22,067 bases of DNA from a virus, in IMG/VR virus record IMGVR_UViG_3300042549_006746, positions 1-22,067 of that record. One strand, written 5' to 3'. The position numbers and the translations under genes were made by a program. Shown here one piece after another: positions 5,365 through 21,932 of the stretch. Within the stretch, counting starts at the first letter, position 1; every line of letters starts with the position of its first letter. The notes below the pieces were generated by a model, which was given only the letters and a program-made list of their open reading frames with translations, had not been told where the DNA came from and did not search any database.

Positions 5365-5367
5365 TTT

Positions 5368-6984
5368 TTAATATTTTTTAAAATAATAATCTTCTATAAT
5401 TAAACAATCCATTTCTGTTTTTTCAAGTATTGTAAAAGCATCTTTACAAGTAGATAATATTGGTTTTCCATCTACATTAAATGATGTATTTAATAAAACA
5501 CCAACACCTGTTTTTTCTTCAAATTTAGTTAATAAATCGTATAACCATTCATTTTGTTCACGTGTTACAGTTTGAACTCGTGCAGTATTGTCTACGTGTG
5601 TGATAGCTGCTAGTTTTTTTCTCCATTCTGGTTTTACTGTAGGGCAGAATGACATCCATCTTGATTCCGTTTCCCATTCAAAGTATTTAGATATATCTTC
5701 TAAACGAACTACAGGAGCAAATGGACGATACCATTCTCTATGTTTTACTTTAGCATTTAATGTATCTTTCATCTCTGGTGTTGATGGGTTACAAAGTATA
5801 CTTCTGTTTCCTAAAGCTCTAGCTCCATGTTCTGATCTTCCCCTAGCTACTCCTACTATCTTCCCATTAGCTAAATCATTAACTAAATCATCTTGATTTA
5901 AAAAATTAGATAAAAAATGAACATTACTATTTTGTATATAGTAAGACAAATTATCTAGATCTAATAATGTTGTACCTGAATAAGTACTGTCAAATGCTTT
6001 TTCTGGTTTTAGATGGTTTAAAAGTATACCTAAAGCAATACCACAATCATTAGGGTCAGGTGCTACAAATACATCTCTCTTAAATTCAGTTACTAAACGC
6101 GTATTTAGCAATATATTTAAACCACATCCTCCCGTTATACCAATTGGTAAGTCTGGATATCGGTTCATATATGGTAGTGCTACTTCTAAGAAACTATCTT
6201 CAAAAGCTCTTTGTGTTGTTGCTGCTATATCCCAACCTAATTTACCTTCTATTCTGTCATATATATCAAACTTAACACCTATTTTTTCTCCTAATTCATC
6301 TACATGTTGTTGAAAATCTAAACCATTAAGATTACTTTTATAAAATTTCATAAAAGCAGGTAACCATTTTTTCTTTACTTTACCATATGAAGATAAACCC
6401 ATCATTTTACCAGGATATACAAGATTACCGGTTCCTAAATCTTCAAAATTAATATCTTTAAGATAATGACCTAACATCATATAAGGAAATCCTAAATCAT
6501 AATGAATGTGAGGACTATCAGATAATGGGCTTGTTACACATTCTAACAATCTTGGTGATTCACCTCTAACACAGTGGTATACATTAAATTTTCCATCATT
6601 TCCACCACCATCAAATGAAAATATTAACATTTCATTATGTGGGGATTGATAAAAACATCCAGCTGCATGGCCTTCATGGTGTAAACAGTGTATATAATTT
6701 TTAGCAGGTATGTATTTTTCTAATTCATGCTTTTCATATATGATAACATCCGTATTTAAATGATAACAGTTTTCAAATTCTGTTATATTTAATTTTTCCA
6801 TTATCCATTTAGGAATATACTGAGCGTAGAATAATAAATCTTCTGTTTTAGGACATTTGTATTGAGCTAAACCACTATTTTTATAATTAAGAAATCTCTC
6901 TAATTCTAATACTAAGAGTATTTCATTATTTTCTTCCACAACATAAGCGGCGTTGTGGGAACCGTAAAAAGCTATATTCGCCAT
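5368..6984 (-). CDS. Carbamoyltransferase, NodU/CmcH/TobZ family
   Basis: This enzyme transfers a carbamoyl group from carbamoyl phosphate, via carbamoyl-AMP, to a hydroxyl on a sugar or other acceptor. The 538 residues cover both family domains. The N-terminal Kae1-like domain has HHEGHAAG at 102-109 (metal-binding His), SFDGGGND at 123-130, GKMMGLSSYGK at 192-202 and ITGGCGLN at 283-290. The C-terminal domain has GRSEHGARALGNRSIL at 382-397, REWYRPFAPVV at 416-426 and NTSFNVDGKPI near 490-500. No catalytic motif is obviously lost. It lies between two YibB-type glycosyltransferase genes, with a 1-nt gap upstream. Some phage members of this family carbamoylate hydroxymethylated cytosine in DNA; others act on glycans or antibiotics. 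The acceptor here cannot be read from sequence. Confidence 0.95.
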   Translation of the reverse strand: MANIAFYGSHNAAYVVEENNEILLVLELERFLNYKNSGLAQYKCPKTEDLLFYAQYIPKWIMEKLNITEFENCYHLNTDVIIYEKHELEKYIPAKNYIHCLHHEGHAAGCFYQSPHNEMLIFSFDGGGNDGKFNVYHCVRGESPRLLECVTSPLSDSPHIHYDLGFPYMMLGHYLKDINFEDLGTGNLVYPGKMMGLSSYGKVKKKWLPAFMKFYKSNLNGLDFQQHVDELGEKIGVKFDIYDRIEGKLGWDIAATTQRAFEDSFLEVALPYMNRYPDLPIGITGGCGLNILLNTRLVTEFKRDVFVAPDPNDCGIALGILLNHLKPEKAFDSTYSGTTLLDLDNLSYYIQNSNVHFLSNFLNQDDLVNDLANGKIVGVARGRSEHGARALGNRSILCNPSTPEMKDTLNAKVKHREWYRPFAPVVRLEDISKYFEWETESRWMSFCPTVKPEWRKKLAAITHVDNTARVQTVTREQNEWLYDLLTKFEEKTGVGVLLNTSFNVDGKPILSTCKDAFTILEKTEMDCLIIEDYYFKKY

Positions 6985-6985
6985 A

Positions 6986-7903
6986 TTAAATTAAAGGTTT
7001 TAAAAAGAAATGAGAGAATGATATTTGTCCTGGTGTGAATATATTTTTCCAATCTTCATGGTAAAATGTATCAAAATACCAATTTTTAAACCATTCTCTA
7101 TTAGTGGTATTTATGTAAGCCATTATTTCCTGTTCTGTACATATTTCATCTACTTGAAGTATCTGTTCTATTACTTCTTTAGATTTATTAATATACTGTA
7201 TCATTAAATCTGAGTTTCCTCCGAATATTCCTGCTATAGGATAAACAGATTCATAATTTGTATTTAAATTTAATTTTTTATTAAATTCATGTAGATCATC
7301 ATCAGTTGAATGCCTATGTAAGTTAATAATTTTATCCTCAGCATACACATTTATTTTGTTTAATATTTCTGGTGTGAATGCTTTGTTATAATTGTATACT
7401 TTATACTCATTTACCATATATTCACTTCCATAAAACGTAGCGAATTCAGGTTCAATATTATATTGATTAGCAGAAGAAGGAAATAATCCACTATGAGATA
7501 AACCAGCATCAATCCAATACAGTTGAATATTAGGTTCATATTCCATTTCTAAGAATGAATATTTCATCCAATATATAACAGTAGGTCTAGTATAAAATCT
7601 AACACTTTCAGGATTATTATACAATTCTGATTTGTTTGTTCTTATTTTATGTACTCTGTCTTGGTAAGGATTATCTTCAATATTATATATTTTAATAGTT
7701 AAATTTTTAAGATTAAATTTTTCTTTTAATTCTACTAATTGATTATATCCTTTATCTCCATAATCAGTATAACATACAGTATGTACTCCCAAGCCACAAA
7801 TTGTAGCTAAGGAGTATTTATACCATCTATCTCTATTTAATTGACCCCAGTAAGGTTCCCCATTATGAAATGGGTAGTATGACGTTACAATTTTAGTTTC
7901 CAT
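6986..7903 (-). CDS. HtrL/YibB-family putative glycosyltransferase
   Basis: A 305-residue protein that matches the middle domain of the fusion protein at 3067-5364: IVTSYY near the start, YWIDAGLSHSG at 129-139 and GIFGGNSDLM near 225-234, against VVTGLW, IWLDAGITN and GGLFGGHKDFL there. The family is annotated as HtrL/YibB, found in LPS and glycan loci and thought to be glycosyltransferases; the DAG motif may be part of the sugar-nucleotide site. No signal peptide or membrane segment is seen, so it should be cytoplasmic. Its start overlaps the end of the upstream glycosyltransferase by 11 nt, indicating translational coupling. Donor and acceptor are unknown. Confidence 0.75.
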   Translation of the reverse strand: METKIVTSYYPFHNGEPYWGQLNRDRWYKYSLATICGLGVHTVCYTDYGDKGYNQLVELKEKFNLKNLTIKIYNIEDNPYQDRVHKIRTNKSELYNNPESVRFYTRPTVIYWMKYSFLEMEYEPNIQLYWIDAGLSHSGLFPSSANQYNIEPEFATFYGSEYMVNEYKVYNYNKAFTPEILNKINVYAEDKIINLHRHSTDDDLHEFNKKLNLNTNYESVYPIAGIFGGNSDLMIQYINKSKEVIEQILQVDEICTEQEIMAYINTTNREWFKNWYFDTFYHEDWKNIFTPGQISFSHFFLKPLI

Positions 7904-9179
7904 AATTCACTGGCCCTTCTATTCGTTCTACCCATTCTTGAGATTTACTATGAGCCCAAATAACCCATTTTGATGGTACTTGATCTATTAAGAAGAATTT
8001 TTCTTCATTATACCAATCACCTTGAGTTGCCATAATTTGTTTTATCTGATGTTCATTATAATCCTCTCTCCAAATTTGATTTCCATTTTCATCATCAAAT
8101 GCTACAACCCAGAAGTCATAGTCTGAGTGTTTGAAGGTAGATTTATTGAATTGTAATAAGTGGTAGAATGAAAACATAAATGAGTTTTCCCATTCTTGAT
8201 CATCTTCAATAAATGGATTTGGTGGATAATTATTATCTAGTGTGTATCGTTGTACTGCTCGTTTCTTAAAATGAATACCAGCATATTTTTCATAATCTCT
8301 TAAAGTACGCTCAGTTCCTAAATCATAACCAGTTAAATCAAATCCGTTATCTTCTGTTTGAAGTAATTGTCTAATTTTAGCTCTAGCTATATTTTGCTGA
8401 GACCACCAATCTTCACCTCGTTTAGATTGATCATCCCATACTAGGATACCATCACGTTCTTCTCTCATAGTAGCATGCCATACAACTAATTTATGTGGGT
8501 GGAACATATCATAACCATGAGTATATGAACGCACAGTTAAATTTAATTCTTCACCACTAAAATATATATCAGCATCATGGAGAACAGTTTTAGCCCAATG
8601 ACTATCAGCAAAGCAAAAATGTCCTGATAAGAATCTTGATGGTGCGGGTTCTGTCATATCTTTCCATCCGTGTAATAATCCTGGTCTAATAAAAATAGTT
8701 CCATGAGGATAGAATGAGGCAAATGTTTGTTGCCAAGGTTCCATAGTACGCTCAACAGGATCATTAAATGGATTATAGTAAGGTAGATATGCAGCTAATA
8801 TAGGTTTTTTATGACCTTTATCTTTTAATTGATCATGCATTTCAATTAATGTAACATCCCAATCTTGTGCAAATCTATGATGTGAATCTAATTGACAAAT
8901 GTATTCCTCGTTTGTAATTAATGTATTAATTTGATAACGAGCATAAGGTAATCCTTTAGCTTCTGTATATGGTATATCAATAATTTTGAAATGCTTATCT
9001 TTTCTGTAAGCATCAATATTATCAAATCCATCCTCATTATTGTATTGACGGCATATACCAAATACTAATCTTTTAGGATATTTTGCATTATTTAATGCAG
9101 ATTCTATTGTAGGAATTAATTCAGGTTCTCTATACGCTGGTAGATGAATGAATATTTTGCGGTTTTCTGCTTTTTTCAT
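7893..9179 (-). CDS. GlcNAc-transferase-like glycosyltransferase (PF11397/GT60-like), copy B
   Basis: A 428-residue protein if started at 9179, where the ATG overlaps the upstream stop codon by one base (TAATG). A longer in-frame start at 9218 would overlap the upstream gene by 40 nt and add 13 residues unlike the paralogue, so I prefer 9179. The N-terminal part is a GT-A fold: FIHLPAYREPELIPTI at 10-25 and the metal-binding QLDSHHRF at 96-103, as in the Skp1-type GlcNAc-transferase family. WHATMREER, near the middle, is a further conserved stretch. The C-terminal ~100 residues form an extra Trp-rich domain also present in the upstream paralogue (DFWVVAFDDENG, WVIWAHS). It is cytoplasmic, with no signal peptide. 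Donor sugar and acceptor are unknown. Confidence 0.82.
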   Translation of the reverse strand: MKKAENRKIFIHLPAYREPELIPTIESALNNAKYPKRLVFGICRQYNNEDGFDNIDAYRKDKHFKIIDIPYTEAKGLPYARYQINTLITNEEYICQLDSHHRFAQDWDVTLIEMHDQLKDKGHKKPILAAYLPYYNPFNDPVERTMEPWQQTFASFYPHGTIFIRPGLLHGWKDMTEPAPSRFLSGHFCFADSHWAKTVLHDADIYFSGEELNLTVRSYTHGYDMFHPHKLVVWHATMREERDGILVWDDQSKRGEDWWSQQNIARAKIRQLLQTEDNGFDLTGYDLGTERTLRDYEKYAGIHFKKRAVQRYTLDNNYPPNPFIEDDQEWENSFMFSFYHLLQFNKSTFKHSDYDFWVVAFDDENGNQIWREDYNEHQIKQIMATQGDWYNEEKFFLIDQVPSKWVIWAHSKSQEWVERIEGPVNYGN

Positions 9180-10456
9180 TAATAAGGTATTTCGTTTTGT
9201 ATTATTTCGTGATTCCATTCTTTAGATGGACTGTGAGGCCATAGTAACCAACTTGTTGGATATTCTACACAATCAAATTCTCGCCAAATATCATAAAATT
9301 GTCCTGGGCTTCCAAGTTTTATTCGGTTAATTTCATCAACATCAGCATCTTGTCTATTAATTTCAACACCGTTTTTATCCTTAAAGGCTATCACCCAACA
9401 ATCATAATCTTCTTCAGTAAGTGAACCTTTATAAACGTTAATACAATATTTAAAACGTCGAGTCATATTAGCTTCCCATTCTTCTTCAGTTGTATATGGT
9501 ACTGGTAGTAGTTTGTGTTGAGATGTGTGAATATGAACACGTTTTCCTTTAAAATCAACACCTATGTAATGTTCAAATTCTTTTAATGTTCGTTCAGTTC
9601 CTAGATCATATCCTACAAAGTCAAAATCTTCTCTGCTTTCATCATCTATACCAAATAATGCTCGATATTTTCTAAATGAACGTTTATCTAAAGGTGAAAA
9701 TTGATGATCATCCCAATGACGTTGTTTTCCTTCTCTAGTATATTCATGCCATATAATAGGAATGTGAGGATGAAACAAGTCATACCCATGTGTATAAGCA
9801 CGAGCAGCTATTGATGTTTCTTCTCCATGGAAATATAAATCAGGATCGTGTGGCACTTCATGTACGAAACTACCTAAAGTAAAGGCAAAGTGTCCCGAGT
9901 ATAGTCTAGCAGGTATTGGTTCTTTAATATCTCTCCAATTTGGTACGTAGTCAGGAGTAATAAATATAGGACCCTCAGGCATAAATCTATCATAATTTGT
10001 ATGCCATATTTCTATATTTCTACCTTCAGGATCATTTTTAGGAAAATATCCAGGTAAATATGCAGTTAATAATGGTTTTTTATGACCTTTAGCTTGAAGA
10101 CCTTTTAACATATTAATTAGAGTCTCATCCCAATTCTTATCGAATCGGTGATGAGAATCCAATTGTAATGTGTATTTTTCTCCGTTATATTGTCGTTGAA
10201 GTTTATTTCTGGCCCAACATACGCCTTTTGCATCTTTGTAGTTTATATCCAATATATTAAAGCGAGGATCGTTTTTATATTGGTCTAAAGTATCCCATTT
10301 ATCTTCTTTAGAATGTTGCCAAGCAATACAGAAATGTAAGTTTTCTGGGTATTTTGCATTGGATATACAATTTTCTAAAGTGGGAAGTAATTCCGGGTCT
10401 CTATAAGAAGCGATTTGTACAAATATAATTTCGTCAGAAATCTTTTTTTTAGGCAT
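9179..10456 (-). CDS. GlcNAc-transferase-like glycosyltransferase (PF11397/GT60-like), copy A
   Basis: A 425-residue paralogue of the downstream gene, alike along its whole length, so the pair arose by tandem duplication. Key stretches are IFVQIASYRDPELLPTLENC at 11-30, QLDSHHRF at 98-105 (DSH replaces the usual DxD), PARLYSGHFAF near 180-190 and IWHEYTREG near 238. The C-terminal extension (DCWVIAFKDKNG, SWLLWPHSPSKEW) is shared with copy B. Family members transfer GlcNAc to hydroxyl groups, for example hydroxyproline of Skp1 in eukaryotes; bacterial and viral members are mostly uncharacterised. The gene follows the small membrane protein gene by 14 nt and ends in a one-base stop/start overlap with copy B. 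The two copies may add successive sugars. Confidence 0.83.
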   Translation of the reverse strand: MPKKKISDEIIFVQIASYRDPELLPTLENCISNAKYPENLHFCIAWQHSKEDKWDTLDQYKNDPRFNILDINYKDAKGVCWARNKLQRQYNGEKYTLQLDSHHRFDKNWDETLINMLKGLQAKGHKKPLLTAYLPGYFPKNDPEGRNIEIWHTNYDRFMPEGPIFITPDYVPNWRDIKEPIPARLYSGHFAFTLGSFVHEVPHDPDLYFHGEETSIAARAYTHGYDLFHPHIPIIWHEYTREGKQRHWDDHQFSPLDKRSFRKYRALFGIDDESREDFDFVGYDLGTERTLKEFEHYIGVDFKGKRVHIHTSQHKLLPVPYTTEEEWEANMTRRFKYCINVYKGSLTEEDYDCWVIAFKDKNGVEINRQDADVDEINRIKLGSPGQFYDIWREFDCVEYPTSWLLWPHSPSKEWNHEIIQNEIPY

Positions 10457-11743: not shown

Positions 11744-12439
11744 TTAAATATTATGTCCACCATTATTAATCTTTAATGAATCAAAGAATTCTTTACGAGC
11801 ATTATTAGAATCATCTCTAAAAGCACCACTTGCTTTTGTAGTAACCATTGCAGCACCTTGATGTTTAACACCTCTACAAGATACACAATTATGAGTTCCA
11901 ACTATAGTAACAATAACACCTAAATTACCTTCTGTAATTTTATCTACAGCATTGTGGATAGCTGATGTTAATTGTTCTTGGATAGCTCCTCTGCGACCAA
12001 ATAATTCTACAATACGATTTAATTTAGATAAACCAATTACTTGACCATTTTCTCCTGAGATATAACCAATATGAACTACACCTCCAATTGTTTGATGGTG
12101 ATGTGAACACATTGAGGTTAATGGAATATTTCTTTCAATTATAATACCATCGTAACCATCACTTGGGAATGAGGTAATTTCAGACATTGCTGTATATCTT
12201 CCTTTCCATAAATCGTGAACGTAAGCTTTAGCTACACGTCGTGGAGTTTCCATTGAATTTGGATCATTTCTCCAATCACATTTTAGGGCATCTAAAAATA
12301 AACCATATGCTTGTTCAGCATCATCGATCATTTTTTCCTTTTCTTGATCAGTAAAAGGGAAACCAGGTGCAACACCATTAGCAAATCCTACTTGTACTAC
12401 TTCTAGATTAGTGTGACTCTTTCGTCGTTTGTTTTCCAT
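11744..12439 (-). CDS. folE: GTP cyclohydrolase I
   Basis: Converts GTP to 7,8-dihydroneopterin triphosphate, the first step towards folate and towards preQ0/queuosine-type deazaguanines. The 231 residues match the family length. Zinc ligands are C111, H114 (SMCSHHHQ, 109-116) and C185 (HNCVSCRG, 183-190). Other conserved parts are METPRRVAKAY at 63-73 and GLSKLNRIVELFGRRGAIQEQ at 136-156. The usual CEHH is CSHH here, a modest change beside the zinc site. It lies in one transcript with QueE (64 nt upstream gap) and PRTase (3 nt downstream). A weak inverted repeat (12440-12453, AACAA/TTGTT) directly precedes the ATG and could tune translation. The FolE-QueE pair supports a phage deazaguanine pathway, though QueD and QueC are not in this window. 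Confidence 0.97.
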   Translation of the reverse strand: MENKRRKSHTNLEVVQVGFANGVAPGFPFTDQEKEKMIDDAEQAYGLFLDALKCDWRNDPNSMETPRRVAKAYVHDLWKGRYTAMSEITSFPSDGYDGIIIERNIPLTSMCSHHHQTIGGVVHIGYISGENGQVIGLSKLNRIVELFGRRGAIQEQLTSAIHNAVDKITEGNLGVIVTIVGTHNCVSCRGVKHQGAAMVTTKASGAFRDDSNNARKEFFDSLKINNGGHNI

Positions 12440-12503
12440 AACAATAAGTTGTTTTTTTATCTTTACTAAATGTAATAAATTTTATTTTAATATCCAAATA
12501 ACA

Positions 12504-13277
12504 TTATACTTCTCTTTGGTCTTCAAATGCAATGATATGAGGTCTCCAAGTTAATCTATAACCATTATCTCTAACCCAATCAAACATTTTAGGATATGAT
12601 TTAAATAAAGCCTCTCTTGAATCACCAGCTGGCATGAACCATACTTTATCTTGCGGTATATCTAATACTTTAATACAACCCATAATTTCATCTAATGCGC
12701 CTTGATCTTCACCATCCCATACAGGTTTTAAATGATAATCCGAATGGTACGCTATCATTTTAGACATTGCATCATAGTTAAGTCTTAATTTATTATGTTG
12801 CTTAATCATTTTTTCATCCGTAACAGCTCCTTGAGGTGTAAGTACTCCAACTTTAGGAACCGAATTACTAAACTTAGGTGATATGGAAAGTAAATTAATA
12901 GGATAGTCAGTCTCTAGAAAATGAGAGCCTTCAGTTTCGATTGTAATGAAGATTTTTCTTTCATGTGCAAAATGTGTTAATTCATTTACTAATGCTGGAT
13001 GCATTGTAGGTGATCCTCCTGTTAGCATCATCTCTGTGATGTGAGGATTTGCATCATACATGTTAATAATGTCTTGGAAAGTAATATGTCCTTTTTCAGG
13101 ATGTATACTTGTGTACCAAGAATCGCACCATCCACCTTCACCAAAATAACATCTGTGAGTACAGCCTGTTGTTCTGATTACTACGGTTGGATAGCCTGCT
13201 CTACTTCCTTCTGATTGTACTGCTGTATAAAGCTCTACAACTGGGAGTGTTTTGTTATAGTCTTCTATTCTTTTCAT
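12504..13277 (-). CDS. queE: 7-carboxy-7-deazaguanine synthase (radical SAM)
   Basis: A 257-residue radical SAM enzyme that contracts 6-carboxytetrahydropterin to 7-carboxy-7-deazaguanine in the preQ0 pathway. The N-terminal YTAVQSEGSRAGYPTVVIR stretch at 17-35 (compare the family's SIQGEG...G) and the cluster-binding cysteines C39, C43 and C52 identify it. GGSPTMHP at 92-99 stands in for the GGEP SAM-binding motif, and ETEGS follows at 114-118. The cysteine spacing is CX3CX8C rather than the canonical CX3CX2C, as in other QueE with insertions in this loop. The gene opens an operon after a terminator, behind the same leader as the DNA polymerase. Its product may feed 7-deazaguanine DNA modification, which protects some phages from restriction, or host tRNA queuosine. 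Confidence 0.9.
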   Translation of the reverse strand: MKRIEDYNKTLPVVELYTAVQSEGSRAGYPTVVIRTTGCTHRCYFGEGGWCDSWYTSIHPEKGHITFQDIINMYDANPHITEMMLTGGSPTMHPALVNELTHFAHERKIFITIETEGSHFLETDYPINLLSISPKFSNSVPKVGVLTPQGAVTDEKMIKQHNKLRLNYDAMSKMIAYHSDYHLKPVWDGEDQGALDEIMGCIKVLDIPQDKVWFMPAGDSREALFKSYPKMFDWVRDNGYRLTWRPHIIAFEDQREV

Positions 13278-13349: not shown

Positions 13350-13766
13350 TTATTCTCTTTTTCCTTTATGTTTATCTAACTTATCTAGGATTTGAGTTAA
13401 TAATTCATTTTTAACTACACCTACCATTGAGGCATTTTTTAATATAGAAATTAATTGAAACACTAAAAATGGAGCTATAATTGTCTCACTTAACCATGAT
13501 GTTCCTGTAAATCCTTTTTCTATTGTTAGGATTGCTGATAGCATTACTACCCAGAATCCAAATGTTCTTAATACTTTTAAAGCTCTATAAGTTTTGAATC
13601 CTTCTTTTTTAACTCCAGCCCATACACCGAAGAACCCATCAGCAAATACTACAAATGCTACTGATAGGTACTGTTCGATGTTATCTGCTGTTAGATTCAT
13701 AAAGTATGAACCTATAAATGCGCAAGCTGTTGTCAATGATAATGTAATTAAAAGTGAAGTTTTCAT
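13350..13766 (-). CDS. Phage holin, holin 4-1 (PF05105)-like
   Basis: A 138-residue membrane protein with about four hydrophobic segments (near 5-24, 34-52, 68-86 and 92-110). The pattern FADGFFGVWAGVKKEGFKT at 41-59, RTFGFWVVMLSA at 67-78 and a C-terminal FQLISILKNASMVGVVKNE is that of the holin 4-1 family (D..G...A.K, then ..E..SilEN...lG). Holins form holes in the inner membrane that release the endolysin. The endolysin gene ends 11 nt upstream of this start, giving a standard lysis cassette. The soluble C-terminal end (DKLDKHKGKRE) is charged, as usual for holins. Confidence 0.85.
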   Translation of the reverse strand: MKTSLLITLSLTTACAFIGSYFMNLTADNIEQYLSVAFVVFADGFFGVWAGVKKEGFKTYRALKVLRTFGFWVVMLSAILTIEKGFTGTSWLSETIIAPFLVFQLISILKNASMVGVVKNELLTQILDKLDKHKGKRE

Positions 13767-13777
13767 CTTATATTTAA

Positions 13778-14389
13778 CTATTTAACGTATTCGTAATACT
13801 TTTTAGTTTTTTCGTTTCTATCTGCTAAACCATGAGTACCACCGTTAATTCTTTTTGTAAGAGCTAAGATAGCTGCATCATTAATTCCTTTATCACATAT
13901 CTCCCATAATTTGTTTTTATCAAAGAAGAACATTGCTGATTCAAATGAATATTCTGTAGCTACTAAGTCAGGGTTAGTCATGATTTCTGGTTTTTGTAAA
14001 TACTTAGCGAATGCAGCATAATTATCTTTTCCAGTTAATTGTAAAGCACCTCTACCTCTGTATTTCCAACCATCTCCTGATTTTTCATCACCATTACCCA
14101 TTCTAGATGCGTAAACTCTGTTAGCGATTTTTTCAGGATTTCTAGCGTAAGATTCTTCTAAAGTACCTGGAAAATATTTTCCAAATATACCTTGAAGACC
14201 TTGAGCTGAATAGTTTAAATTTTCAGAAAACAATTTATAACCACCTGTTTCGTGAGCTGTTTGTGCAAAGAAATGCGCAGCTCTAACAGGAGTTAATTTA
14301 TAAAACTCCATTGCTTTTTTCATAGTACCAGGACCGAATGCTCCGTCTGCTGTTACTCCTATTTTAGCTTGTAAACTTTTTAAGCTCAT
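13778..14389 (-). CDS. Endolysin, GH19 chitinase-like with N-terminal peptidoglycan-binding segment
   Basis: A 203-residue lysozyme-like enzyme of glycoside hydrolase family 19, used by many phages to cut peptidoglycan. Residues 1-28 (LQAKIGVTADGAFGPGTMKKA) look like the second half of a PG_binding_1 domain. The catalytic pair is E47 (TAHETGG) and E56 (FSENLNY), followed by GDGWKYRGRGALQLTGKDNY (near 105-124), which lines the GH19 cleft. There is no signal peptide, so export depends on the downstream holin. It starts 2 nt after the small membrane protein gene stop. Confidence 0.94.
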   Translation of the reverse strand: MSLKSLQAKIGVTADGAFGPGTMKKAMEFYKLTPVRAAHFFAQTAHETGGYKLFSENLNYSAQGLQGIFGKYFPGTLEESYARNPEKIANRVYASRMGNGDEKSGDGWKYRGRGALQLTGKDNYAAFAKYLQKPEIMTNPDLVATEYSFESAMFFFDKNKLWEICDKGINDAAILALTKRINGGTHGLADRNEKTKKYYEYVK

Positions 14390-14391
14390 AA

Positions 14392-14691
14392 TTATTCTTC
14401 TTTTTTACCGTTTTTAAATCCTGCAAATTTCTCTAATACATCTGGAAGGAATGATCCTAATGTAATGTACATAAATGCATCGAAGATGTACTCGTTTAAT
14501 TCTAATGCTTTACCCATGTAACCTGTTACTAGGTCTACTACAATGGCAATTACCATTACCATAAATGACATGAATCCAATTACAACTTTTTCATTGTAAT
14601 CATTTGATTTTTTAAAAATACTGAAAAATCCCATAAAATAATTTTTTAAGTTAGTTAATAAACAACCTATTTGACGGAACATATTTTTCAT
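14392..14691 (-). CDS. Small two-TM membrane protein in the lysis cassette
   Basis: A 99-residue protein with hydrophobic helices near 36-58 (VVIGFMSFMVMVIAIVVDLV) and 68-84, and a charged C-terminus (FKNGKKEE). No family is recognised. Its place directly before the endolysin makes it a candidate second holin, antiholin or spanin-like helper. The start is uncertain: ATG at 14691, 14682 or 14634 are all in frame. The last gives an 80-residue protein beginning MGFFSIFKK, with an A/T-rich leader much like other starts here, and may be the true one. Confidence 0.7.
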   Translation of the reverse strand: MKNMFRQIGCLLTNLKNYFMGFFSIFKKSNDYNEKVVIGFMSFMVMVIAIVVDLVTGYMGKALELNEYIFDAFMYITLGSFLPDVLEKFAGFKNGKKEE

Positions 14692-14712: not shown

Positions 14713-15174
14713 TTAAAATTTTAGTTCATCAATGGCTTCTATTAAAGCTTTTTTAACTGCTCCTGAGAATGCAGTCTTGTTAAATGGTAGGTTATCGTCG
14801 TTCAAATCTAAGAATGTTGATTGAACTGTTACGTTTGCTTCTCCTTGACCCCAATATTCCTCTTTTCCTATTATAAGTCTTAGTTTTACAATAGTAACTT
14901 TTTTAGTTTTAGAGAATGGACCAAAAGATGTATTTGTTGAAGGTGCTTCTACTGATAATACTTCTACTTCAACTGGGGTTCCATTTTCACATATATCGTA
15001 TTTTTCAGATAATATTTCTTCAGTCATTTGTTTGATACCAAACACAACTCTTTCTTTTTTCATTTCCGGTGCTTCTATTTGTGAAGACACTTTTGTTACT
15101 TTATAACATTCTTTAGTAGCTGTATCAGCTGATAGTAAGAACAGTACCGATAATAGTAGTAATATTTTTTTCAT
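14713..15174 (-). CDS. Secreted protein of unknown function
   Basis: A 153-residue protein with a clear signal peptide (MKKILLLLSVLFLLSA, cleavage near 16-17) and no lipobox. The mature part contains two Cys (C23, C62) that could form a disulfide in the periplasm. Its C-terminal half is strand-rich (VTIVKLRLIIGKEEYWGQGE near 92-111) and ends in a helix (FSGAVKKALIEAIDEL). The beta-strand-plus-helix end loosely recalls the CsgG-like protein at 16687-17400, but the likeness is too weak to name a family. It is the last gene of the exported-protein island and, unlike the other five, does not have Gln after the predicted cleavage site. Confidence 0.75.
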   Translation of the reverse strand: MKKILLLLSVLFLLSADTATKECYKVTKVSSQIEAPEMKKERVVFGIKQMTEEILSEKYDICENGTPVEVEVLSVEAPSTNTSFGPFSKTKKVTIVKLRLIIGKEEYWGQGEANVTVQSTFLDLNDDNLPFNKTAFSGAVKKALIEAIDELKF

Positions 15175-15185
15175 AATTAAAATTT

Positions 15186-15254
15186 TTATCTTCCAAAAAG
15201 GAAGTTTGAGACTTTATCATAAAACCTTTCAAATAATTGATTTAATTTTTTCAT
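15186..15254 (-). CDS. 22-residue micro-ORF with amphipathic helix
   Basis: A short reading frame, MKKLNQLFERFYDKVSNFLF then GR, lies between the outer-membrane protein gene (stop 2 nt before the ATG) and the 153-residue secreted protein gene. Its TTTTAATTATG start context is the same as that of the downstream gene. Hydrophobic residues L4, L7, F8, F11, Y12, V15, F18 and L19 fall on one helix face. It may be a real micropeptide, or a leader that couples translation between its neighbours. No homologue is recognised. Confidence 0.4.
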   Translation of the reverse strand: MKKLNQLFERFYDKVSNFLFGR

Positions 15255-15256
15255 AA

Positions 15257-16687
15257 TTAAAATGTTAATTTTCCTCCTGTTAGTATTTGGTAGTTTAAGA
15301 ATTCTTTACCTGCTTCGTATACTCCTGTAAAGCTTACATTAAATTTAAAGGTCTTAGTTATTTTTAAGTCCCATGAATTGAATGGTACTACTATTATTCC
15401 TGCATCCCACCATTTACCTTCATAGAATTGAGTGAATGGAGAGTATACTCCTAATACAAGTACGCTAGTACTAACTCTATCACTTAGTTTAAAACTACTA
15501 TGTCCTCCAGCTACAGCTGATAGATTTAATAGAGCTCTTTCTCCCATTTTACCTGCTGTAAAGTTAACCCCAAACATTCCTGTTAACTTACTACTCACTT
15601 TATATGATTCTAATACTGTAGTTGTACTAAAGAAATTTTTATCAAAATCCATCATAAGAGATTGAGCACCTACTGTATTTAGTTTTTTAGATTTATTAAT
15701 CCAAGATTTATAAAAAGTAACATTTAAGTTATTAACTCCTGAGGTAAAATTAAATAATACTCCTTTAATTCTAGTTCCCCTAGTATTGGCATGAGTTATA
15801 CTCCCTACAAATCTAAAGTTCTGAGTTTGATCAGTATTGGCAATAGCTACTATATCTCCTGAGGCAATTAAACTTCCTACACTTTTAGCAGCAGTATTAG
15901 ATTTTTTACCTCCACCTGATGTTCCCCCACCTGATGAACTTCCTCCTTCAGCTGATCCTCCGTCTACGGAGTTTGATAAAGAGTTAGCTAAGTTACTTCC
16001 ACCTCCACTTGATCCTTCTACAGATGACTCAGACGTTGAACCTCCTGTTGAAGTTGGTTGATTTGGATTTGTAGTTTCTCCTCCTTGTTGAGGTGTTCCT
16101 GATGAAGGTTGTGAAGGTGTTCCTCCAGAAGAGTTAGGATTGGTTTGGCCTCCTTGATTTTGGTTACCTGTTGGGCTTGTTCCAGTAGTTCCTGAATTCG
16201 TTCCTGCAGGTGTATTTGAATCTGATTTTTTGTCATTTTTTGAGTTTTGGTTAGTACTACCTCCTTCACTTTGTGAAGAATTTGTTACGCCTCCGGCTGT
16301 AGCTGTCATAGAACTCCCCATAGATCCTCCTATGGTTGCTATAGATTGAGCTACATTTGTCACAGATATTACATTTGTGACAACAGTTAATGTGTTAGCT
16401 ACTGTAATATTAGTTATACTATTTACAATGGCTGTAGTTACGGACTCACATGGTGAGTTAGAATTTTGTTGGGATACTTGAGCTATCCAGTTGTCAAAAA
16501 CCCCTGAAGAAAAGTCATTTGAAGTAAATATATTTTGATTGTCAAAATAGTTTACCATTACACCACCTCCCGCAGGTACGTAAATACTCTTTGATACTAA
16601 GGTGCAAGGGTCTTTGTAAGTATAGGTGTATTGACTCCAAGAAGTCAGGGCTGAGAATAGTAAGAATAATAGTATCCATTTTTTCAT
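15257..16687 (-). CDS. Outer-membrane beta-barrel protein with Ser/Gly/Asn-rich linker
   Basis: A 476-residue exported protein. The signal peptide is MKKWILLFLLFSALTSWS with Q19 as the new N-terminus. Residues 20-115 form a small N-terminal region with Cys28 and Cys80 and a Thr/Val/Asn-rich stretch (SITNITVANTLTVVTNVISV). Residues 120-262 are low complexity (Ser, Gly, Thr, Asn, Gln, Pro), a flexible linker. Residues 275-476 alternate polar and hydrophobic residues in successive strands and end in KLTF; a C-terminal Phe is the usual BAM recognition residue, so this part is probably an outer-membrane barrel. The start abuts the CsgG-like gene stop. It may partner the CsgG-like protein in the outer membrane. 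No family is recognised with confidence. Confidence 0.75.
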   Translation of the reverse strand: MKKWILLFLLFSALTSWSQYTYTYKDPCTLVSKSIYVPAGGGVMVNYFDNQNIFTSNDFSSGVFDNWIAQVSQQNSNSPCESVTTAIVNSITNITVANTLTVVTNVISVTNVAQSIATIGGSMGSSMTATAGGVTNSSQSEGGSTNQNSKNDKKSDSNTPAGTNSGTTGTSPTGNQNQGGQTNPNSSGGTPSQPSSGTPQQGGETTNPNQPTSTGGSTSESSVEGSSGGGSNLANSLSNSVDGGSAEGGSSSGGGTSGGGKKSNTAAKSVGSLIASGDIVAIANTDQTQNFRFVGSITHANTRGTRIKGVLFNFTSGVNNLNVTFYKSWINKSKKLNTVGAQSLMMDFDKNFFSTTTVLESYKVSSKLTGMFGVNFTAGKMGERALLNLSAVAGGHSSFKLSDRVSTSVLVLGVYSPFTQFYEGKWWDAGIIVVPFNSWDLKITKTFKFNVSFTGVYEAGKEFLNYQILTGGKLTF

Positions 16688-17400
16688 TAGTTCAGAAATA
16701 TACCCTTTTTAATCATTTTACTTACTACTCTTGAAGAGGCAGTTTCTAATGACTTTTTGGTAGATACTCCGATTGTTGATTGATTAAATTTAATATCGTC
16801 GAGTCCATCTAATAAGTTTGCCTTCTTCACTGTAACTGCTTCACCAGATCCTGATCCCGTGATTATTTCACCGCTTTGTGCATCCACAAATCTTACTTGT
16901 AACCCTAATATTGTTTTTTGTTTTATTTCAGCTCCTGAAGTTGTTACTTCTTCGTCTTCACCTATGCTGAAATCATAAACTTCTATATAAACAAAATACT
17001 TTGCTAATATAACATTTCCTTTAACTTCTATTTTATTTTCTGATATACCTTTAGCGGAAGCTATATGTTGGGCAATCATTTTTTGTTTTATTTCTTCTTT
17101 ATCTTCTGTAAATTTAAATCTATTTGTAGACTCTAAATACTCTAATACTATATTTGATACTCCTAAACCAACTCTTTTATCTTTTAGTTCCGGGTACATT
17201 TCGTACAACTCTTCGTTGATACCAATTTTAAGAATCTGAATAGGAATGATAATATCCCCAGTATAATCAGATACTACATCCAATGATTGTTTCTTTTCAA
17301 AATCAGCTTTGTATTCTTCAGTCTTAACAGACCCTATGGTTTGAGCAGAGCCTATTATACTAAATAATAAAAATATTATATAAAGTACTTTTTTTACCAT
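16687..17400 (-). CDS. CsgG-like protein (curli production assembly/transport family)
   Basis: A 237-residue exported protein. The signal peptide ends IIGSA with Q20 at +1; there is no lipobox Cys, whereas E. coli CsgG is a lipoprotein. The CsgG fold pattern is seen as KDKRVGLGVSNIVLEYLEST (near 74-93), an ESTNRF...EEIKQKMIAQ segment, a strand NVILAKYFVYIEVYDF, then GLQVRFVDAQSGEIITGSG (near 166-184), the family's VRLVDxxTGEV feature, and a C-terminal helix with serial Ser/Ala/Val/Lys. CsgG forms the nonameric outer-membrane pore for curli subunits. The gene overlaps the upstream gene by 7 nt and abuts the outer-membrane protein gene. No curlin, CsgE or CsgF is apparent, so its cargo is unknown; a structural (virion) role is also possible. 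Confidence 0.72.
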   Translation of the reverse strand: MVKKVLYIIFLLFSIIGSAQTIGSVKTEEYKADFEKKQSLDVVSDYTGDIIIPIQILKIGINEELYEMYPELKDKRVGLGVSNIVLEYLESTNRFKFTEDKEEIKQKMIAQHIASAKGISENKIEVKGNVILAKYFVYIEVYDFSIGEDEEVTTSGAEIKQKTILGLQVRFVDAQSGEIITGSGSGEAVTVKKANLLDGLDDIKFNQSTIGVSTKKSLETASSRVVSKMIKKGIFLN

Positions 17401-17720
17401 GATTCTTTTTGAGCAGGTTGAGCTGCAGGAGCTGGTTGAGCTGCTGGTTTTTCAATTACTCTTTCCTTAACAACAGTATGTGTACCTCCTGATTGTTTTT
17501 GTTGATTAGTGTTATTGTTTTGTAAGTTAATAACAACAGGTGCTGCTGCTGGTGCAGGAGCTACTTGTTCTGTCTTTACTTCTTCTTTATCTTCTGAGTG
17601 GCCTCCACCAAGTTGAGTTGTTAACCATACTCCTCCTGCTGTTACAATAGTTCCTAGAGTTCCAATAATGGTTTTTTTCAATCCTGATAATCCTCCTTCG
17701 TTGTTTGTTTCTTCTGACAT
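17394..17720 (-). CDS. Membrane-anchored Pro/Ala/Gln-rich protein
   Basis: A 108-residue protein with one transmembrane helix at about 15-38 (KKTIIGTLGTIVTAGGVWLT) and a long disordered tail rich in Pro, Ala, Gln and Asn (APAPAAAPVV, then AAQPAPAAQPAQ). Such tails often span the periplasm, as in TonB-like and spanin-like proteins, but no motif proves either. The ATG of the CsgG-like gene overlaps its last codons by 7 nt, so the two are translationally coupled. It may link the inner membrane to the outer-membrane parts of the exported system; this is inference. Confidence 0.7.
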   Translation of the reverse strand: MSEETNNEGGLSGLKKTIIGTLGTIVTAGGVWLTTQLGGGHSEDKEEVKTEQVAPAPAAAPVVINLQNNNTNQQKQSGGTHTVVKERVIEKPAAQPAPAAQPAQKESW

Positions 17721-17724
17721 GGTT

Positions 17725-18456
17725 TTAATTTTTTATAAGTTTAAATGTTTTAACAAATTTAGTATTTGTTATTTGTAATAAATAGATACCACTAGGGTAA
17801 GATTGTAAATTTTCTTGAATTGAATTATCTCCTTTTACAAAACGTTGTTTTCTATTATGTAAGATACTTCCATTTAAGTCATATACTATTATGTTGTAAT
17901 CTCCACTTACTGGGAGAGATAAATCTACTGTTACAATATCATTTGTAGGTACAGGGTAAGCTCTACCATTAATACCATCTTCATCTAAAGGAGCAGCATT
18001 TTTGTTCATATTAACATATCCATTTGTATTAGTTACGGCAATATCCCATCCTTGTACATCTCCCGCTGTTTTTCTTCCTATTGTTATAGGAGTTGTAGTC
18101 CAGTTAGGATTAAGTACTGTAAATTTTAATATGAATAATTCTGTTGGAGCTGTTACAGTATATTGCCCATGTGTTCTGTCATATCCTCCCCATCTTACTT
18201 TCCCATTTCCTGTATCCATTGTGTAGGTTAACCAAGTCTGTGCTTTTTCAGATAAGATTATTTCTGAGAATTGTAAAATGCTTTGATCATAATTTAAAGC
18301 AAATTCTAAACTCCCTACTCCATTTCCGTTTGTTTGAATAACTACTGGAAGATCTATAGTATTAGATGGAGACACTGTAATCCCAGGCACTTGAAATTGT
18401 ACCTGGGAGTATAGTGAATTTAGTGATAACAGTGCTATGATTATATAGCGTAGCAT
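17725..18456 (-). CDS. Cohesin-like secreted protein with T9SS type A sorting domain
   Basis: A 243-residue exported protein. The signal peptide ends LNSLYS with Q18 at +1. Residues 19-150 form a beta-sandwich resembling cohesin domains (VGSLEFALNYDQSILQFSEI at 47-66, then ELFILKFTVLN near 106-116). Residues 166-243 match the type A C-terminal domain of type IX secretion cargo: AYPVPTND at 166-173, YNIIVYDLNGSIL, SYPSGIYLLQI and a final KTFKLIKN. The host T9SS would move it across the outer membrane, remove the domain and release or anchor the protein. It lies directly after a second cohesin-like gene (1-nt gap). T9SS cargo domains are normally cellular, so one in a phage is notable. Confidence 0.88.
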   Translation of the reverse strand: MLRYIIIALLSLNSLYSQVQFQVPGITVSPSNTIDLPVVIQTNGNGVGSLEFALNYDQSILQFSEIILSEKAQTWLTYTMDTGNGKVRWGGYDRTHGQYTVTAPTELFILKFTVLNPNWTTTPITIGRKTAGDVQGWDIAVTNTNGYVNMNKNAAPLDEDGINGRAYPVPTNDIVTVDLSLPVSGDYNIIVYDLNGSILHNRKQRFVKGDNSIQENLQSYPSGIYLLQITNTKFVKTFKLIKN

Positions 18457-18457
18457 A

Positions 18458-19549
18458 TTAGTTACGTCCTGTTCCGTTTGCGTCTCCTAATACTAACAGA
18501 TAGTAATTAGCAGCTGTTGTATTGTTAATGTTAGCTGAAGTAAATGTTGATACCCCTGGAATTGTAGCTGATAAACTTGTTGTAGCAGCAGCAATTTGAT
18601 TATATTGAGCTTCTGTAAAGAATAATAAATCAGGTGTATTTGGGTAAGTTGATAAACCTTGAGCTAATCTAGAGAATAATGTATATGAATCTGAAATTGT
18701 AATTCCATTTGCTTGGTTAGGGTTAGCAGTGTAGAATTGGATTCCAGTTGGTATTTGTAATCCTGTAGCAAGTTGAGCCATCATATCAGCATCTGCAGCA
18801 GATAAAGCATCTGGTGCTGTAAGACCTGGATTTACTTTAACTCTAATTTGCCAGTAGTTCTGATCTAAGTTAGTTGTAAATTGAGCTACCCCTGTTGTAG
18901 CAGCAGTATTAACTGTCATTACATCTACCCAAGTTGTTCCGTTTGAAGATTTTTGTAATACAACTGGTACATCTGAAGCTGGGTTAGTTGGGCTATTTAA
19001 GAATGTAGCAGCATAGTTAAATACTGGTTCTGTAAATGCTCCACCATAATTTTGTAACCCTAATGTAGTATCAGTTCCATTTGCTAGAGTACCATAAGCT
19101 GGATAAGCTGTTGCTCCTGAAAATGCCATAGCGGTCACAGCTCCGTTAGTATAACTTGATTTGAATGGTAAAGCTACGTTGAACATTACTCCGTCAGCGA
19201 TATTAAAAGCAGCATTTGTTCCTGTGTAAACCCATGTAACTGTTACATTTCCTTCAGTAGCGTTTACTAATGTTTGGAAATAGTTGTTTGTTTCAGCTCC
19301 TGTGTAAGTTACTGTTGGAGAATCAAATACGTTTTTGTCATACCAAAATCTGTACTGTACGGCTTTAATAGCTGTAGAACCAGCATTATCATAATAAATT
19401 GCAACGTTTGTAGGTGTTGCGCCTATAGGTGCTAGATTGTAACTAGCGTCAAAGATTAAGTAAGGCTTAGTAGCATCAGGTGCTGTAGTTTGTGTGAATC
19501 CTGTTAATGATACTAAAACCAAACTTAAAGCTAAAAGTAATTTTTTCAT
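18458..19549 (-). CDS. Secreted protein with cohesin-like N-terminus and dockerin/EF-hand-like C-terminal module
   Basis: A 363-residue exported protein. The signal peptide ends SLTGFT with Q20 at +1. Residues ~25-175 look cohesin-like (IKAVQYRFWYDKNVFDS at 61-77, DGVMFNVALPFKSS at 119-132), residues ~178-240 form a second strand-rich unit, and residues ~247-363 carry a module shared with the protein at 19627-20901. Its centre is NPNQANGITISD at 276-287, like a dockerin calcium loop (positions 1, 3, 5 and 12 are N, N, A and D), followed by YTLFSRL and later by FTEAQYN, PGVSTFT and NYYLLVLG. The C-terminus GDANGTGRN is also Ca-loop-like but stops short. No T9SS sorting domain is visible. A phage surface adhesin or partner of the cohesin-like neighbour is possible. 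Confidence 0.75.
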   Translation of the reverse strand: MKKLLLALSLVLVSLTGFTQTTAPDATKPYLIFDASYNLAPIGATPTNVAIYYDNAGSTAIKAVQYRFWYDKNVFDSPTVTYTGAETNNYFQTLVNATEGNVTVTWVYTGTNAAFNIADGVMFNVALPFKSSYTNGAVTAMAFSGATAYPAYGTLANGTDTTLGLQNYGGAFTEPVFNYAATFLNSPTNPASDVPVVLQKSSNGTTWVDVMTVNTAATTGVAQFTTNLDQNYWQIRVKVNPGLTAPDALSAADADMMAQLATGLQIPTGIQFYTANPNQANGITISDSYTLFSRLAQGLSTYPNTPDLLFFTEAQYNQIAAATTSLSATIPGVSTFTSANINNTTAANYYLLVLGDANGTGRN

Positions 19550-19626
19550 TTCTTTTTTATTTAAGTAATTATTAATTCAAAAACCAGGTGTTTTCACACT
19601 TTTATGTTTATAGATAAATATGATAG

Positions 19627-20901
19627 TTAATTACTATACCCCAATCGTGTTATATAATAATTAGAAGTTCCACCAGATGTTGGATTATTTATTGTTATTG
19701 ATTGCACTCCAGGATACGTTGTTCTTAAATCTGTGGTCGATGTTTTCAAAGCGTTAAATTCTACTGGTGTAAATATTCTTAATACGGGTAATGTTCCACT
19801 ATAAGATGGTAATACTCCATTTCTTCTCATAAATACAGAATATACATCAGATACTGTTATATTATTAGTATTGTTAATATCATATCTATAATAATCTAAA
19901 GAAGTTAATCCACCATTTAATACTTTATTATTACTATCAGTAGCATCTAATACAGCTAATGCGTTAGTTAATGTTGGTGTATCTATTTGAATATAAAACT
20001 CATTTGATGTTGTACTTAACGCAGTATTAAAATTATAATACCCTGATGTGTTTGTTGTAGATGTTGTGTTTAAAGTCCAAGGTCCTGCGGGTGTTCCTGA
20101 TATACTTGTACTAGAACCATCTGTTACGAATTGTCTCCAAACTACTAATTTTATATTAGGCTGATTTTTTACAAAATATAAATCCCAAATAGTATCAACT
20201 CCTGATTGGGTATATTTTGAATTACCTTCATATCTCACTCTAAATACATCTCCCCAAAAAGGATCAGTATATGCTTCAGTTGATACAAACGTCATATTAT
20301 TATCCGAAAAACTATTATCAACGGATCCTATGTGAATTGTAGGCGCTGGTGGGTTGGTTGCATTTCCTTGATACCCACTACTATTTGCTGTTCCAAAAGT
20401 AAACCAAGAGTTTGCATTTACGTGTCCACTTGAATAAGTGCTTCCCAAGAAAGAAGTTGTAAATCCTGTAGGGAGTGTTATAGCTACTGAAGCTTCATCT
20501 GCTTGAGAAGAATACAATACAGATGTTCCTCTATTTCTATTAGCAGGTATGTTTGATGAAAATGGAGCTATTGTTGCTGATCCAGCAGCAGTAGTTACTG
20601 TAAAAGCGTTTGTAGTAATATAGTTATAGGTTGTACTGTTGTTTGGAGAGGCATTAAATACATTTCGAGCTAGAAATGTAGATCCATTAGTAACACCGAA
20701 TTGTTCTGATCCTGCTGTTACAGCTGAATTGCCTGATGTTCTAGTGAATAATTTTACTGCTATCCCTTGTACTCCTATTTCTTTAGTTCCATAAATGTAG
20801 CCAGAGTATGTAAAATTTTGTCCATAGGACAAAAAAATACCCCCTATAGTGAGAATAAGGGGGTATAACCATTTTTTGATATGTTGCAAACTAAACTTCA
20901 T
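19627..20901 (-). CDS. Large secreted protein with dockerin/EF-hand-like C-terminal module
   Basis: A 424-residue exported protein. The signal peptide (about residues 1-27, ending FLSYG) is followed by Q28. Residues 30-330 are rich in Thr, Ser, Asn and Gly and appear all-beta: FTYSGYIYG at 30-38, VLYSSQADEASVAITLPTGF near 128-147, and WFTFGTANSSG near 166-176. Residues 341-352 (DINNTNNITVSD) fit a dockerin calcium loop with D341, N343, T345 and D352, followed by VYSVFMRRNG; the rest (FTPVEFN, TYPGVQSIT, NYYITRLG) matches the module in the next gene. No T9SS domain is seen. A terminator-like hairpin lies in its signal-peptide codons (20831-20866). No known enzyme is recognised; a binding or structural surface role is the best guess. 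Confidence 0.75.
   Translation of the reverse strand: MKFSLQHIKKWLYPLILTIGGIFLSYGQNFTYSGYIYGTKEIGVQGIAVKLFTRTSGNSAVTAGSEQFGVTNGSTFLARNVFNASPNNSTTYNYITTNAFTVTTAAGSATIAPFSSNIPANRNRGTSVLYSSQADEASVAITLPTGFTTSFLGSTYSSGHVNANSWFTFGTANSSGYQGNATNPPAPTIHIGSVDNSFSDNNMTFVSTEAYTDPFWGDVFRVRYEGNSKYTQSGVDTIWDLYFVKNQPNIKLVVWRQFVTDGSSTSISGTPAGPWTLNTTSTTNTSGYYNFNTALSTTSNEFYIQIDTPTLTNALAVLDATDSNNKVLNGGLTSLDYYRYDINNTNNITVSDVYSVFMRRNGVLPSYSGTLPVLRIFTPVEFNALKTSTTDLRTTYPGVQSITINNPTSGGTSNYYITRLGYSN
20831..20866 (-). promoter_or_regulatory. Terminator-like hairpin inside signal-peptide codons
   Basis: On the minus strand a perfect 9-bp inverted repeat (ATACCCCCT/AGGGGGTAT, arms 20858-20866 and 20837-20845, 12-nt loop) is followed by seven T. 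This is the form of an intrinsic terminator or attenuator, placed 35-65 nt into the gene at 19627-20901. It encodes part of the hydrophobic core of the signal peptide. Whether it stops transcription is not known. Confidence 0.5.
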
Positions 20902-21747: not shown

Positions 21748-21843
21748 AGTCAGGACAGGATTCGAACCTGCTCCAGCTTTGCCATAAAGAGTATATTTCA
21801 ACTCAACCTTGGGGAGGTGCCACCAACCAATGGTCTCCTGACT
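21748..21843 (-). tRNA. tRNA-like gene with unusual central region, anticodon unassigned
   Basis: A 96-nt RNA-like unit. The acceptor arms AGTCAGG and CCTGACT pair perfectly (7 bp), the discriminator is A, and the T arm GCAGG-TTCGAAT-CCTGT joins the acceptor as in true tRNAs. A short D-like arm (ACC-ATTGGTT-GGT) with GG in the loop follows. No clean 5-bp anticodon stem with a 7-nt loop and U33 is found; the best candidate is a 3-bp ACC/GGT stem around TCCCCAA. The extra length sits in a long variable-like region with GAGT/ACTC and CTTT/AAAG hairpins. It may be a diverged type II tRNA, a decoy or a degraded gene. Confidence 0.6.
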
Positions 21844-21849
21844 GTTTGG

Positions 21850-21932
21850 AATCGGTAAGGGACTCGAACCCTTATCACACATAGAAGTGCTGTTACCCTC
21901 TGCCAGCGTTATGCTGATTACACTAACCGATT
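21850..21932 (-). tRNA. tRNA-like gene with G-1:C73-type end, anticodon unassigned
   Basis: An 83-nt unit. Acceptor AATCGGT pairs perfectly with ACCGATT, and the T arm is AAGGG-TTCGAGT-CCCTT. U8 and A9 are followed by GTGTAAT, as in many D arms. Base C73 can pair with a G just before the 5' end (21933), a feature of tRNA-His, but no GTG anticodon is in place. The only central stem is GCTG/CAGC with an 11-nt loop lacking a normal U33 context, and a CAC/GTG hairpin makes a type II-like variable arm. Either decoding is abnormal or this is not a working adaptor tRNA. Confidence 0.6.

Follow-up and report, generated by a model that had tools for sequence, protein, structure and literature searches.

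In clostridial CipA, a cohesin, an X-like module, and a dockerin stand in succession (CohI9-X-DocII; PDB 3kcp/4fl4), and the scaffold presents dockerin-bearing partners on the cell surface. A cohesin scaffoldin anchored by the type IX secretion system (T9SS) is part of a cellulosome-like complex in Ca. Stygibacter (Cloacimonadota); this scaffoldin is attached to the surface through a C-terminal domain, and its exported partners bear dockerins (PMC8542988). Among phages, pelagimyophages and phage Melnitz carry CsgG/CsgF genes (PMC7029224, PMC9004378), and genes of Cryophage carry T9SS type A sorting domains, including one with PA14 (PMC7468147). Here, we analyzed an IMG/VR virus record of 22,067 bases (the window) in which positions 14713-20901 hold a cassette of eight consecutive minus-strand open reading frames (ORFs), transcribed in the order P7, P6, P5, P4, P3, P2, micro-ORF, and P1 (Table 1). 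We propose that this cassette is probably a phage-specific surface display apparatus on the infected cell, built like a minimal cellulosome.

We file the cassette with cohesin-dockerin surface assemblies. Compared to CipA, it is encoded by a phage, it has only two cohesins, and its scaffold is without enzymes or carbohydrate-binding modules (CBMs); a T9SS tag replaces the S-layer anchor, and lectin tips replace the cellulases. The Ca. Stygibacter complex, by comparison, is cellular and is built on a 3,755-amino-acid scaffold with CBMs and degradative enzymes, and the consulted portion of its description does not mention CsgG-fold or barrel genes. Cryophage carries single tagged enzymes or a PA14 protein, and the text of that report mentions neither cohesin nor CsgG. 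No phage cohesin-dockerin system was found in the open-access papers searched. An earlier note on this sequence had known of no described phage system with this combination, and none appeared in the literature searched, where phage CsgG/CsgF and T9SS-tagged genes are reported separately.

A cohesin scaffold with a T9SS sorting domain

All of the ORFs listed in the earlier note were present, and the composition it described was recovered: six proteins with signal peptides (P7, P6, P5, P3, P2, and P1, each called by eye), one membrane-anchored protein (P4), and one conserved micro-ORF. P5 matched Pfam Cohesin above the cut-off (8.3e-10), the PDB cohesin 1g1k in a sequence search (6e-4), and, again above the cut-off, Por_Secre_tail (PF18962, 3.3e-12), which bears out the T9SS sorting domain that the note had predicted. 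P5 thus has the two features of T9SS cargo, an N-terminal signal peptide and a conserved C-terminal sorting domain.

P6 alone had no Pfam match, but it aligns with residues 1-367 of scaffolds in which P6 and P5 are fused. In a survey of 34 non-redundant loci (the window and 33 relatives), P6 and P5 formed a single protein in 24 of the 33 relatives, with the layout cohesin, X/dockerin, cohesin, and T9SS tag, and 102 fused P6-P5 ORFs were counted. Pfam found the T9SS sorting domain in 11 of 11 fused scaffolds. When a profile of 33 fused scaffolds was compared to the PDB, it matched the ScaB dockerin at residues 244-310 (0.0012) and a cohesin at residues 401-537 (0.007). An AlphaFold model of one fused scaffold had a mean pLDDT of 73.5, with values above 90 in the first cohesin. 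This first cohesin, which is the homologue of the P6 N-terminal domain, matched type I cohesins at Z 14.6, and the top Foldseek matches for the scaffold were CipA CohI9-X-DocII (4fl4 and 3kcp). Both of the proteins considered cohesin-like in the note can therefore be assigned as such, P5 directly and P6 through its fused homologue.

Because the scaffold profile and fold match the ScaB dockerin and the CipA cohesin-X-dockerin arrangement, the module common to P6 and P7 is best read, at the level of sequence profile and structural model, as a transthyretin-like (X-like) domain followed by a dockerin. This agrees with the shared dockerin-like module noted earlier. Within the module family, Dockerin_1 was detected by Pfam in 9/17 members (best 9e-5), and both Dockerin_1 and PDB dockerins align over both 22-residue repeats; the copies from the window itself fall below Pfam thresholds. 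The second calcium loop of the dockerin is canonical in most members (DVNGDNNITISD).

Exchangeable tips

The dockerin-bearing partners of the scaffold are P7-type tips, usually one per genome. Lectin_C was found in 24 of 36 such tips and Laminin_G_3 (ConA-like) in 12 of 36, with some carrying both, and a few bear PA14 or Ig-like domains. In genomes with a C-type lectin, that domain sits only in the tip. Pfam detected no glycoside hydrolase in any of the 36 tips, the class of enzyme expected of a cellulosome, and with no enzymes the cassette is not a cellulosome. The middle domain of the window's P7 matched only close copies of itself.

The nearest isolate to the window, the 160-kb Flavobacterium phage vB_FspM_immuto, infects Flavobacterium sp. 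LMO8 and is the sole carrier of the cassette among annotated phage records. Its gp013-gp019 are the same syntenic cassette, with gene order kept and 76-88% identity across the genes searched, and its annotation lists only a lectin, a cohesin, and hypothetical proteins. Between the window and immuto, the tips share 57% identity in the N-terminus and 51% in the dockerin module, whereas the middle domain is not shared, with that of immuto being a C-type lectin. Since the tip middles differ even though their neighbours are 76-88% identical, the tips are swapped as modules. One relative has two tips, one of the window type and one of the lectin type. The tail-fibre region of immuto has Laminin_G_3 domains as well, which fits, and does not show, that its tips and tail fibres see similar glycans. 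The possibility that the C-type lectin tips are targets of a diversity-generating retroelement was considered and rejected, as the RVT_1 reverse transcriptase is absent from the 12 large phage records described below.

Distribution and conservation of the cassette

A P3 profile identified at least 590 viral loci or contigs, some of 150-430 kb, compared to three matches among 84,980 prokaryote genomes, which rules against a cellular origin of the whole cassette. Among 395 sampled Bacteroidota genomes, P3 was found in two, one of which is a metagenome-assembled genome at the centre of the sample and the other a marginal match (3.8e-4). When the scaffold profile was run against cellular genomes, the matches listed aligned only over the T9SS tail. 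No PADLOC defence-family matches were obtained.

The scaffold, P3, P2, and P1 occurred jointly in all 34 non-redundant loci, P4 in 32/34, and a tip in 29/34, the latter from a hand recount in which six tips first labelled as a second P6 were reassigned. We also tracked these domains in 12 large phage records (137-434 kb). In each, the cassette holds the only T9SS tag and the only cohesin locus, as well as all of the dockerin modules, which number two except in one record with three; no cohesin, dockerin, or T9SS tag was found outside of the cassette in these records. P3 is the most conserved gene of the cassette, with dN/dS of 0.05-0.15, and P6 has dN/dS of about 0.13-0.23; P7 and hol1, along with a small number of further pairs, gave unreliable values owing to codon misregister and the non-orthologous middle domain, and these were left unused. 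The micro-ORF has changed mostly at synonymous sites, with 100% amino acid identity at pS 0.27 in one relative (L017) and 95% at pS 0.28 in another (L010). The cassette is thus a conserved, virus-restricted module of large Bacteroidota phages, a kit of seven genes, and the exclusive cohesin/dockerin bookkeeping, fusion, strict synteny, and purifying selection argue that it is a single working unit. Unrelated folds and a lack of co-occurrence in related phages had been named in the earlier note as outcomes that would count against it, and neither was found.

CsgG-fold and envelope proteins

P3 had no Pfam match, and a PDB sequence search returned nothing. Its AlphaFold model (40 sequences; pLDDT 73, pTM 0.64) had CsgG as its best PDB structure match (Foldseek 1e-7; Z 12.1 across 173 residues). 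PelC and LptE came next, and TraT further down. In the model, one long hairpin with an acidic (charged) tip occupies the position of the first membrane hairpin of CsgG, and a single strand lies where the second would be, a secondary-structure reading of moderate confidence rather than a residue-level superposition. Since there is no room for the second hairpin, a CsgG-type pore is not supported; of the CsgG-like pore that had been suggested for this protein, the fold holds and the pore lacks support. Judged by the model, PelC with a separate barrel would be a better analogue. PelC, a ring working with the outer-membrane barrel PelB, has the CsgG fold without a membrane barrel of its own and is adjoined by a separate barrel protein, as P3 is by the putative barrel P2, but it serves polysaccharide export and shares no detectable sequence similarity with P3. 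The CsgG proteins of pelagimyophages and Melnitz resemble P3 in being phage CsgG-fold proteins whose operons encode further exported proteins (PMC7029224, PMC9004378). Those phages, however, carry CsgF and infect SAR11/OM43, whereas P3 has no Pfam CsgG match, no second hairpin, and cohesin, dockerin, and T9SS neighbours. A lipobox-like sequence is present in 16/40 P3 homologues.

P1 aligned with P3 over its full length (hhalign probability 95.5%) and is the shorter of the two. Among the cassette genes, only P1 matched PHROGs, and weakly. The only PDB sequence match to P1, ribosomal S1 (4e-4), was judged to be unrelated.

P2 has a conserved N-terminal domain with a Cys pair, a linker rich in Ser, Gly, and Asn, and a C-terminal part of ~200 residues. 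Pfam found nothing in P2, and a PDB sequence search found nothing significant. The outer-membrane barrel that the earlier note had assigned remains plausible for the C-terminus, based on the amphipathic strand pattern at residues 270-476. In some relatives, extra exported barrel-like proteins without Pfam matches occur between P2 and P1 or right after P1 (L020:11211-12020, L030:13283-14476).

P4 has one N-terminal transmembrane (TM) helix, no signal peptide, and a disordered-looking periplasmic tail, rich in Pro, Ala, and Gln, which ends in an invariant Trp. P4 and P3 overlap at 17394-17400, where the start of P3 and the stop of P4 both fall within TCATGGTAA; loci without this overlap still retain the terminal Trp of P4.

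Proposed mechanism and alternative explanations

In the proposed display apparatus, P5 would reach the cell surface through Sec and, after it, the host T9SS; anchored there, it would serve as the docking site for P6 (the two are covalently fused in most relatives). P7 would plug its X-like/dockerin module into a free cohesin. P4 as an inner-membrane tether, P3 and P1 as periplasmic or outer-membrane parts, and P2 as a putative barrel could together form a station across the envelope through which the assembly passes or on which it is held. Glycans would then be the targets of the exchangeable tip. These are most likely surface sugars of the host itself, in which case receptors would be hidden from rival phages (superinfection exclusion); alternatively, the tip may bind the glycans of neighbouring cells. 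As a purpose, we slightly favour exclusion by receptor masking over capture or aggregation. The surface assembly on the infected cell suggested in the earlier note is well supported by this architecture of a cohesin scaffold, a T9SS anchor, and dockerin-bearing tips, most of them lectins, together with the exclusive pairing within the cassette and the co-occurrence across loci.

Several observations weigh against this proposal. The first calcium loop of the dockerin is degenerate, with calcium ligands absent, which also distinguishes it from CipA. The middle domain of the window's own P7 (61-270) had no match to any lectin family in Pfam, and tips were not called in 5/34 loci, possibly an effect of ORF calling. 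Tips have no T9SS tag, so the proposal leaves their passage across the outer membrane unexplained. In addition, confidence in the P3 model is only moderate by its pTM, and the P2 barrel is only putative.

A tentative alternative is that the displayed lectin holds particles or nearby cells, bringing progeny into contact with new hosts. Such an aggregation or capture device would have the same surface anatomy as the apparatus proposed above, its tips are likewise variable glycan-binding folds, and "sibling capture" has been proposed for pelagimyophage CsgGF (PMC7029224). No clumping was seen in Melnitz infections, however, despite the presence of CsgGF (PMC9004378).

We consider it unlikely that the cassette serves lysis or outer-membrane disruption, with P4 and P3/P2 acting as a spanin-like complex or outer-membrane pore beside the GH19 endolysin and holin. 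GH19 is found in 22/34 loci, holin-like genes occur beside or inside the cassette, the P4/P3 overlap resembles spanin gene pairs, and the Melnitz authors proposed a role in lysis for phage CsgG (PMC9004378). This explanation leaves the cohesin, dockerin, T9SS tag, and lectin, which always accompany P3, without a role; furthermore, P4 has no evident coiled coil, and the annotated endolysin of immuto is not adjacent to its cassette but ~6 kb away.

The virion appendages raised in the earlier note, in which these proteins would decorate the virion with, for example, lectin tips that aid adsorption or retention, are improbable. The Laminin_G_3 domains of the immuto tail-fibre region would suit them, but the T9SS tag and the signal peptides on six of the proteins would not, and the 12 genomes hold no further cohesin or dockerin as an attachment partner. 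In immuto, the cassette lies at 10.5-16.4 kb, after the replication genes, and is distant from the annotated virion genes at 119-160 kb, which are T4-like (Gp20, Gp23, and tail sheath). Least probable is the amyloid export also suggested there, a true CsgG-type (curli-like) exporter with P6 and P7 as fibre subunits: it has the CsgG fold of P3 in its favour, but P3 lacks the second-hairpin residues and bears charge at the tip of the one hairpin it has, P2 aligned with cellular CsgF only trivially (across the signal peptide and a few residues), and no curlin-type or CsgF Pfam match was found in the cassette, so that with neither the pore nor CsgF/CsgA/CsgB partners it is not a curli exporter.

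Flanking genes and other features of the window

Table 1. Genes of the cassette, in order of transcription, and the genes downstream of it in the window
Gene	Position	Strand	Description	Basis
P7	19627..20901	-	Exported tip; residues 1-56 N-terminal, ~61-270 variable middle, ~271-424 transthyretin-like/dockerin module	
P6	18458..19549	-	Exported adaptor; cohesin and X-like/dockerin module	Fused homologues, fold
P5	17725..18456	-	Exported anchor; cohesin and T9SS type A sorting domain	Pfam, PDB
P4	17394..17720	-	Inner-membrane protein	Alignment
P3	16687..17400	-	Exported CsgG-fold protein	AlphaFold/Foldseek
P2	15257..16687	-	Exported, putative outer-membrane barrel	Alignment, strand pattern
Micro-ORF	15186..15254	-	22 amino acids, MKKLNQLFERFYDKVSNFLFGR	Conserved in the window's clade
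P1	14713..15174	-	Exported small protein, distant P3 homologue	hhalign
TM protein	14392..14691	-	Holin-like position; sometimes within the cassette in relatives, not required	
GH19 endolysin	13778..14389	-	Endolysin; adjoins the cassette in many relatives	Pfam GH19 4.6e-8, PHROG endolysin 9e-63
Holin	13350..13766	-	Holin	Phage_holin_4_1 1e-6

In some relatives, a holin-like TM gene (hol1 family) lies between P4 and P3 (L053:9564-9884, L091:5308-5589, and L098). An exported DNA/RNA non-specific endonuclease (PF01223, 1.5e-24) adjoins the cassette in 8/33 loci (L020:5191-5769; L002:9935-10513). It could degrade incoming or released DNA, and its position beside the cassette in several relatives would suit exclusion. 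An exported protein of ~150 amino acids with an HExxH (HESLH) metalloprotease motif and no Pfam match is found in or beside the cassette in 17/33 loci (L085:14240-14689).

Elsewhere in the window, a tRNA-like element at 21849-21932 on the minus strand scored 31.6 bits, above the Rfam tRNA threshold, although neither ARAGORN nor a default scan of the whole window detected it; the equivalent region of immuto contains tRNAs. There may be a second tRNA-like stretch at ~21750-21845. Sugar genes at 3067-10456 encode two GlcNAc-type glycosyltransferases (PF11397), a NodU-like carbamoyltransferase, and an HtrL/YibB and methyltransferase protein, and it is possible that they modify virion, DNA, or host-surface glycans. 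Positions 11744-13277 encode GTP cyclohydrolase I and a radical-SAM (QueE-like) protein. Together with QueC, QueD, QueE, and FolE, which immuto also encodes, these genes suggest a 7-deazaguanine DNA modification.

Implications for phage biology

We put at about even the chance that this cassette is the first viral cohesin-dockerin system and a widespread, virus-only machine made up of a T9SS-exported viral scaffoldin, exchangeable dockerin-lectin tips, and a service complex of CsgG-fold and barrel proteins, which gives infected Bacteroidota cells a programmable lectin display. The cassette would offer new cohesin-dockerin pairs and modular lectins, and immuto with its Flavobacterium host provides a concrete setting in which the role of phage CsgG-like genes can be tested. 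If the proposal is true, viruses have adopted the plug-and-socket logic of the cellulosome, along with the host T9SS, to redecorate infected cells, and, with the kit present in no fewer than 590 viral contigs, control of adsorption, exclusion, or aggregation by this route would be common among Bacteroidota phages.

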